Positions 22,583-25,607 of a stretch of DNA of 36,369 nt are shown here, one piece after another. The DNA lies in NCBI RefSeq assembly GCF_028290885.1, contig NZ_JAQGIZ010000242.1, positions 1 through 36,369 of the forward strand. Reading direction: 5' to 3'. The stretch's first letter is position 1. Each line of letters starts with the position of its first letter. The position numbers were made by a program, and so were the translations under genes. This DNA comes from Phenylobacterium sp. (lineage in GTDB: Bacteria; Pseudomonadota; Alphaproteobacteria; Caulobacterales; Caulobacteraceae). The notes under the pieces are model-generated. The model was given only the letters and a program-made list of their open reading frames with translations. It was not told the origin of the DNA and searched no databases.

Positions 22583-24844
<2,262 letters not shown>

Positions 24845-24978
24845 ATGCCTCCTCTCCGCGCCCGGAACCCGGACGCGTCTCTCCCGCGGCGCCAGACCTA
24901 AGCACTCGAAGCTGCGGCGCCAACCGGGCCGGCAACCAGCGTTCCGAAAAAAGCGACGATTCCAGCAGACCAGGAGCC

Positions 24979-25006
24979 GGAACGGATACCGTCGGCCTCG
25001 CGTTCC
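24979..25006. promoter_or_regulatory. Symmetric general-stress (EcfG) promoter, usable in both directions
   Basis: GGAACG (24979-24984) and CGTTCC (25001-25006) are inverted with 16 bases between. On the plus strand this reads GGAAC-N17-CGTT toward ecfG; on the minus strand it reads GGAAC-N17-CGTT toward egtBD. GGAAC-N16/17-CGTT is the established EcfG promoter consensus of alphaproteobacteria. Expected leaders are about 55 bases to ecfG and about 130 bases to egtBD. Activity in either direction is inferred. Confidence 0.7.
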
Positions 25007-25067
25007 CCGAGCGCCGGAGAAGCAGAGTGCGAACCGCCCTGTCGCCGGAAGTCGTATCGAGGGCGTG

Positions 25068-25607
25068 ATGACCGCGACGTCCAGCTGGCGGGATGAAGTC
25101 GTCGCATTGATCCCGGCGCTGCGGGCCTTTGCCTGGTCCCTGAGCCACAACGGATCGGACGCCGACGACCTGGTGCAGGACACCCTGATCAAGGCCTGGA
25201 CCAATCGGGAGAAGTTCGAACCCGGCACCAACCTGCGCGCCTGGCTCTTCACCATCCTGCGCAACACCTACTACACCCACGTCCTGCGCCGCCGCCGCGA
25301 GGTGCGCGACGAGAGCGGCGAGTACGCCGGAACCCTGAAGGCCCTGCCGACCCAGGATTGGAGCGTCGCGATCCGCTCGCTGCAGACCGCGCTGCAGAAA
25401 CTCCCCGTCGAGCACCGGGAGGCGCTGATCCTGGTGGGCGCCGCCGGGCTGTCCTACGAAGAGGCCGCCGAGATCTGCGGCTGCGCGCTCGGCACCATCA
25501 AGAGCCGCGTCAACCGGGCCCGCGCCCGCCTGCTCAAGATCATGGACGCCGAAGACGCCACCGACGTCATGGCGCTGGAGACCCTGCCGGTGGCGGCCCG
25601 GGCCTAG
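25068..25607 (+). CDS. EcfG-type (ECF15) general stress sigma factor
   Basis: The 179-aa protein starts at the ATG at 25068 after a GAGGGCG SD; a GTG directly before it (25065) is a possible alternative. Region 2 reads LRAFAWSLSHNGSDADDLVQDT, then LIKAWTNREKFEPGTNLRAW, then LFTILRNTYYTHVLRRRREV. Region 4 reads LQKLPVEHREALILVGAAGLSYEEAAEICGC and ends GTIKSRVNRARARL. The SYEEAAEICGCxxGTIKSRVNRAR block is characteristic of EcfG/ECF15, the general-stress sigma factors controlled by PhyR and NepR. The symmetric promoter upstream suggests autoregulation. It is convergent with a NepR-like gene, with which it shares the CTAG stop. No phyR is in the window, so this may be a secondary copy. Confidence 0.9.
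   Translation: MTATSSWRDEVVALIPALRAFAWSLSHNGSDADDLVQDTLIKAWTNREKFEPGTNLRAWLFTILRNTYYTHVLRRRREVRDESGEYAGTLKALPTQDWSVAIRSLQTALQKLPVEHREALILVGAAGLSYEEAAEICGCALGTIKSRVNRARARLLKIMDAEDATDVMALETLPVAARA

Follow-up and report, generated by a model that had tools for sequence, protein, structure and literature searches.

In a window of 36,369 nucleotides from Phenylobacterium, by which we mean the whole stretch of DNA analysed, a symmetric element lies between divergent genes for ergothioneine synthesis (egtBD) and for an EcfG-family sigma factor. We put the probability at about three in four that this element is a one-way EcfG promoter with incidental symmetry, and that a separate egtBD promoter has decayed. 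The plus-strand reading would drive the gene for the EcfG paralogue, whose expression would then depend on the canonical EcfG factor, on the paralogue itself or on the two together. Across the genus, the sigma-gene promoter would usually diverge from a distinct EcfG-type promoter that lies on the opposite strand and faces egtBD. In the lineage of the window this second promoter appears to have decayed, and egtBD probably depends on an overlapping RpoD-like promoter and on whatever EcfG activity may be left. The symmetry itself would arise because the -35 box often reads GGAACG and, in rare cases, CC follows the -10 box. We infer transcription and the acting sigma factor from the sites, conservation, spacing and decay described below.

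The original prediction began from a perfect GGAAC-N17-CGTT on both strands, and this observation held. The element occurs once in the window and in none of 100 dinucleotide shuffles of it. Its two readings are the only GGAAC-N16..18-CGTT sites in the window, and two or more such sites appeared in 6 of the 100 shuffles. The element forms an inverted repeat with arms of 6 bases, 16 bases apart. The predicted gene context was correct as to the divergent egtBD and EcfG-family genes and needed correction in two respects: egtB and egtD form one reading frame with the EgtB part first, and the sigma gene is a paralogue (Table 1). Where a related region held both the end of EgtB and the start of EgtD (43 of 89), we could check the junction, which was in frame and stop-free in 42 regions and out of frame in L189. 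In the genus search, the EgtBD protein came in two pieces in genomes G030 and G011. A literature search found no report of an EgtB-EgtD fusion in Caulobacteraceae.

Table 1. Features of the egtBD-sigma factor region, in window coordinates
Feature	Position	Strand	Details
EgtB-EgtD fusion, 753 aa	22583..24844	-	TIGR03440 residues 32-437, TIGR03438 residues 452-750
RpoD-like element	24895..24923	-	TTGGCGC 24923-24917, N13, GCTTAGGTC 24903-24895; kept in the window's clade; weak -10 fit
Apparent decayed remnant of the EcfG-type egtBD promoter that relatives carry separately	24922..24945	-	GGAAC 24945-24941, N15, GGTT 24925-24922; one mismatch
Putative EcfG-type promoter of the sigma gene	24979..25004	+	-35 GGAAC 24979-24983, N17, -10 CGTT 25001-25004; strict site in 77/79 regions
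Symmetric element GGAACG-N16-CGTTCC	24979..25006		GGAACGGATACCGTCGGCCTCGCGTTCC; symmetric in 2/79 upstream regions
Reverse reading GGAAC-N17-CGTT, toward egtBD	24981..25006	-	Strict consensus; unconserved; C before CGTT
EcfG-family sigma factor paralogue, 179 aa	25068..25607	+	Sigma70_r2, Sigma70_r4_2, PhyR_sigma2

In a profile search, the sigma protein matched Sigma70_r2 (3.2e-18), Sigma70_r4_2 (4e-15) and PhyR_sigma2 (8.1e-13), and its closest solved chain was 5uxx_A (4e-49). It thus has the sigma-70 regions 2 and 4 and the similarity to the PhyR sigma-like domain by which EcfG (ECF15) factors are recognized. The canonical copy is recognized by its place beside nepR and phyR; the neighbours of this gene in the window are egtBD and a CocE/NonD hydrolase gene. 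We call it a paralogue because the phyR / nepR-ecfG locus sits on another contig (L007). The gene was found once in the source genome (317 contigs, 89.55% complete, 6.06% contamination), with nine weaker matches to its protein. Passages of PMC3892343 describe non-canonical EcfG copies as common in the class, and autoregulated and hierarchical EcfG paralogues are known from parts of PMC7083833, PMC3892343 and PMC3073932.

To examine conservation we used 97 loci (57 + 40), which after removal of 18 duplicates gave 79 distinct upstream regions. From one search with 80 loci, 27 (L070-L096) were used and 53 (L097-L149, at most 63% identity, other groups) were left out. A family search added ten regions, giving 89, and there the 14 weakest among the matches listed were left out. 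A strict GGAAC-N16/17-CGTT site stood upstream of the sigma gene in 77 of the 79 regions, with a spacer of N16 in 72 and N17 in five, the window among the latter. The two regions that lack it (L094 and L096) are those with the least similar sigma proteins. Within the intergenic parts, 84 of the 89 regions contained a forward site and 60 a reverse site, and 200 shuffles gave means of 0.29 and 0.31, respectively. These results bear out the predicted EcfG-type promoter facing the EcfG-family gene, and indicate that the plus reading is a strongly conserved candidate promoter of the paralogue gene.

The predicted role of one symmetric element serving both directions was not supported by the alignment of the relatives' intergenic regions, the check proposed with it, in which the symmetry was lost. 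Only 2 of the 79 regions are symmetric, the window (L001) and L060, with L045 one mismatch short, and L060 additionally carries a separate egt-facing site. The symmetry is absent from the other six members of the clade to which the window belongs; the nearest relatives are just 91% identical in the sigma protein, the best match in a closest-relative search of a genus set of 101 genomes. Given a forward promoter, symmetry requires a G after GGAAC, present in 59 of 77 regions, and CC after CGTT, present in 2 of 77; with independent base frequencies, 1.5 symmetric sites are expected among the forward sites against 2 observed. In 100 genus genomes there were 31 symmetric elements (spacers N15 and N16) versus 138 matches in a reversed-letter control, which has the same letters in other dinucleotides and demonstrates only the absence of an excess. 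Thus neither the 100 genomes nor the forward sites held an excess of symmetric elements over chance, and on these three grounds (2/79 conservation, 31 versus 138, 2 versus 1.5) we rejected symmetry as a selected feature. The perfect two-way match is probably a by-product: the forward -35 box commonly reads GGAACG, and here the -10 box is followed by CC, which is rare. The case carries a caution, in that two chance bases can turn a one-way promoter into a perfect two-way promoter match.

The predicted link between EcfG and the ergothioneine genes was supported genus-wide, through two separate divergent promoters rather than one element. In 56 of the 77 regions with a forward site, egtB is faced by a strict EcfG-type site of its own on the opposite strand, separate from the forward site, and in 41 of these 56 the two -35 boxes are 32-35 bp apart. 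Counted over the 89 regions, 85 had a forward site, 57 of them with a separate reverse site, and the forward site was missing from four; a divergent EgtB was observed in 82 of the 89. A search of spacers N15 to N18 in the 79 regions found no strict site with N15 or N18. A purine precedes CGTT in 129 of 133 sites (75 of 77 forward and 54 of 56 separate egt-facing). The gaps between -35 boxes (upstream regions L042-L189) fell mostly near 9, 21, 33 and 43 bp, about one helical turn apart, with single cases of 4, 14 and 18 bp; the gap class changes at least six times on the tree, too few changes to test helical phasing. Together, these data support a link of the ergothioneine genes to an EcfG factor in the genus, read from paired promoter motifs. 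In much of Phenylobacterium, the conserved divergent pair would connect a second EcfG factor with an antioxidant pathway, so that ergothioneine could be tested as an output of the general stress response in this genus.

Next to this genus-wide layout, the clade of the window shows loss of the separate site. In a quick tree of 78 sigma+EgtB rows, the window grouped with L066, L077, L052, L154, L044 and L051 (SH-aLRT 94), with L174 as the next relative (97). The strict separate site is missing in six of the seven clade rows, and L077 and L174 retain it. In the window GGAAC-N15-GGTT sits where relatives carry the strict egt-facing site; L052 has GGAAC-N16-GGTT, the -35 box reads CGAAC in L051 and L044, whereas L154 and L066 have lost it and retain GGTTG. 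Immediately before the egt-facing -35 box lies a T-tract (24947-24952, minus strand), which L154 and L066 keep despite the loss of that box and which is absent in L051 and L174. The decayed site overlaps a clade-conserved RpoD-like element, TTGGCGC/TTGCGC followed by G[CA][CT]TAG, which is found in six of the seven clade members and in L174; this pattern was written after viewing the alignment and matches 7 of the 78 rows. Compared with the Caulobacterales RpoD consensus TTGaCgS / GCtANAWC, as given in a portion of PMC8144410, the -35 box fits and the -10 box (GCTTAGGTC) fits poorly. These changes suggest that egtBD shifted from EcfG to housekeeping control in this clade, whose members form a natural series in which the promoter is intact, decayed or perhaps regained.

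We also compared genomes with and without the sigma gene. Among 100 genus genomes, the sigma gene had a close match (E below 1e-60) in 69, and 77 had EgtBD (E at most 1e-60); both were present in 68, EgtBD alone in nine, the sigma gene alone in one (G079) and neither in 22, counts that come from many incomplete drafts and from related, non-independent genomes. Four of the nine EgtBD-only genomes (G040, G070, G077 and G030) carry a strict egt-facing EcfG site, and in the other five (G074, G050, G067, G098 and G094) this site was absent. G077 holds a 46-residue match to the sigma protein. In G040, G070 and G074 a strict EcfG site on the opposite strand is followed by a small open frame that does not resemble the sigma gene. 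Three relatives lacking the sigma gene (L214, L215 and L216) have in its place, after a strict EcfG site, a small open frame whose product contains RFGFF. Because the egt-facing sites of G040 and G070 have an N17 spacer and stand at other positions, this group may be able to regain strict egt-facing sites, of which the symmetric element could be an example.

These possibly regained sites, along with the strict consensus on both strands and the decay of the separate egtBD site in the window, are what could be said for a true bidirectional EcfG promoter, bound in either orientation, with competing directions and a reverse reading that replaced the lost promoter. We regard this as unlikely: no other clade member has the element, its frequency among forward promoters is what chance would give, and L060, where the symmetry also occurs, carries a separate egt-facing site in addition. 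The C before CGTT in the reverse reading also argues against it, although this purine argument is weakened because C-CGTT sites recur near apparent canonical stress loci; in a genus-wide listing of purines and pyrimidines before CGTT, chance matches dominate. That a fully overlapping two-way promoter took over from the lost egtBD promoter in this particular lineage seems improbable as well; if it did, sigma-factor autoregulation would be in competition with ergothioneine synthesis for a single polymerase site. That the element is instead an operator bound by a dimeric regulator is a very remote prospect and was set aside, since relatives conserve the GGAAC and CGTT of the promoter reading and not the bases that turn them into a dyad, even though the element is an inverted repeat.

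A rival that we hold to be doubtful, but the most plausible of these, is that the decayed GGAAC-N15-GGTT still acts as a weak EcfG promoter for egtBD, in which case the symmetric element would be irrelevant in that direction. It is favoured by the GGAAC and upstream T-tract kept at the homologous position, by the GGTTG common to six of the seven clade members, and by the flexible -10 boxes of the EcfG class in Sphingopyxis, as described in part of PMC7083833. On the other hand, L154 and L066 keep GGTTG without a -35 box, as expected if TTG is part of the RpoD-like -35 box, and strict sites with N15 are absent from the 79 regions. The one-way promoter with incidental symmetry is itself opposed by several observations. 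The reverse reading is the sole strict EcfG site facing egtBD in the window, the example of G040 and G070 indicates that such an element could be regained, and flexible -10 boxes imply that GGTT may still function. Furthermore, the RpoD-like -10 box departs from the consensus and a sigma-70 scan of 24700-25200 gave no match, the relatives do not count as independent cases (on the tree, the separate site is gained or lost at least 12 times), and the C-CGTT sites near apparent canonical loci count here too.

In the open-licence literature searched, we found no paper on this locus in Phenylobacterium and, by title or abstract, none on symmetric or overlapping EcfG promoters. One close comparison is the genome's own phyR / nepR-ecfG locus. 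There, as in the genus layout of the window, two strict sites diverge, one facing phyR and the other nepR-ecfG, and their -35 boxes are 40 bp apart; the site that faces nepR reaches into the start codon of the predicted nepR frame, whose true start may be later. The contig (L007) carries phyR, nepR and an ecfG cut by the contig end, and holds two further strict EcfG sites. The window differs in that its divergent gene is egtBD and its sigma gene has no adjacent nepR or phyR. SigU (CC_2883) of Caulobacter crescentus, named ecfG2 in a section of PMC3892343, is an ECF factor under SigT and likewise the product of an additional EcfG-type gene, whose promoter carries a SigT motif according to passages of PMC3073932. 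In Sphingopyxis granuli TFA, the putative ergothioneine genes egtB and egtD belong to the EcfG regulon, which the corresponding part of PMC7083833 reports as the first such case; unlike in the window, egtB and egtD carry two locus tags (SGRAN_4050 and SGRAN_4049), and the ecfG genes appear to lie elsewhere, in the SGRAN_1162 region.
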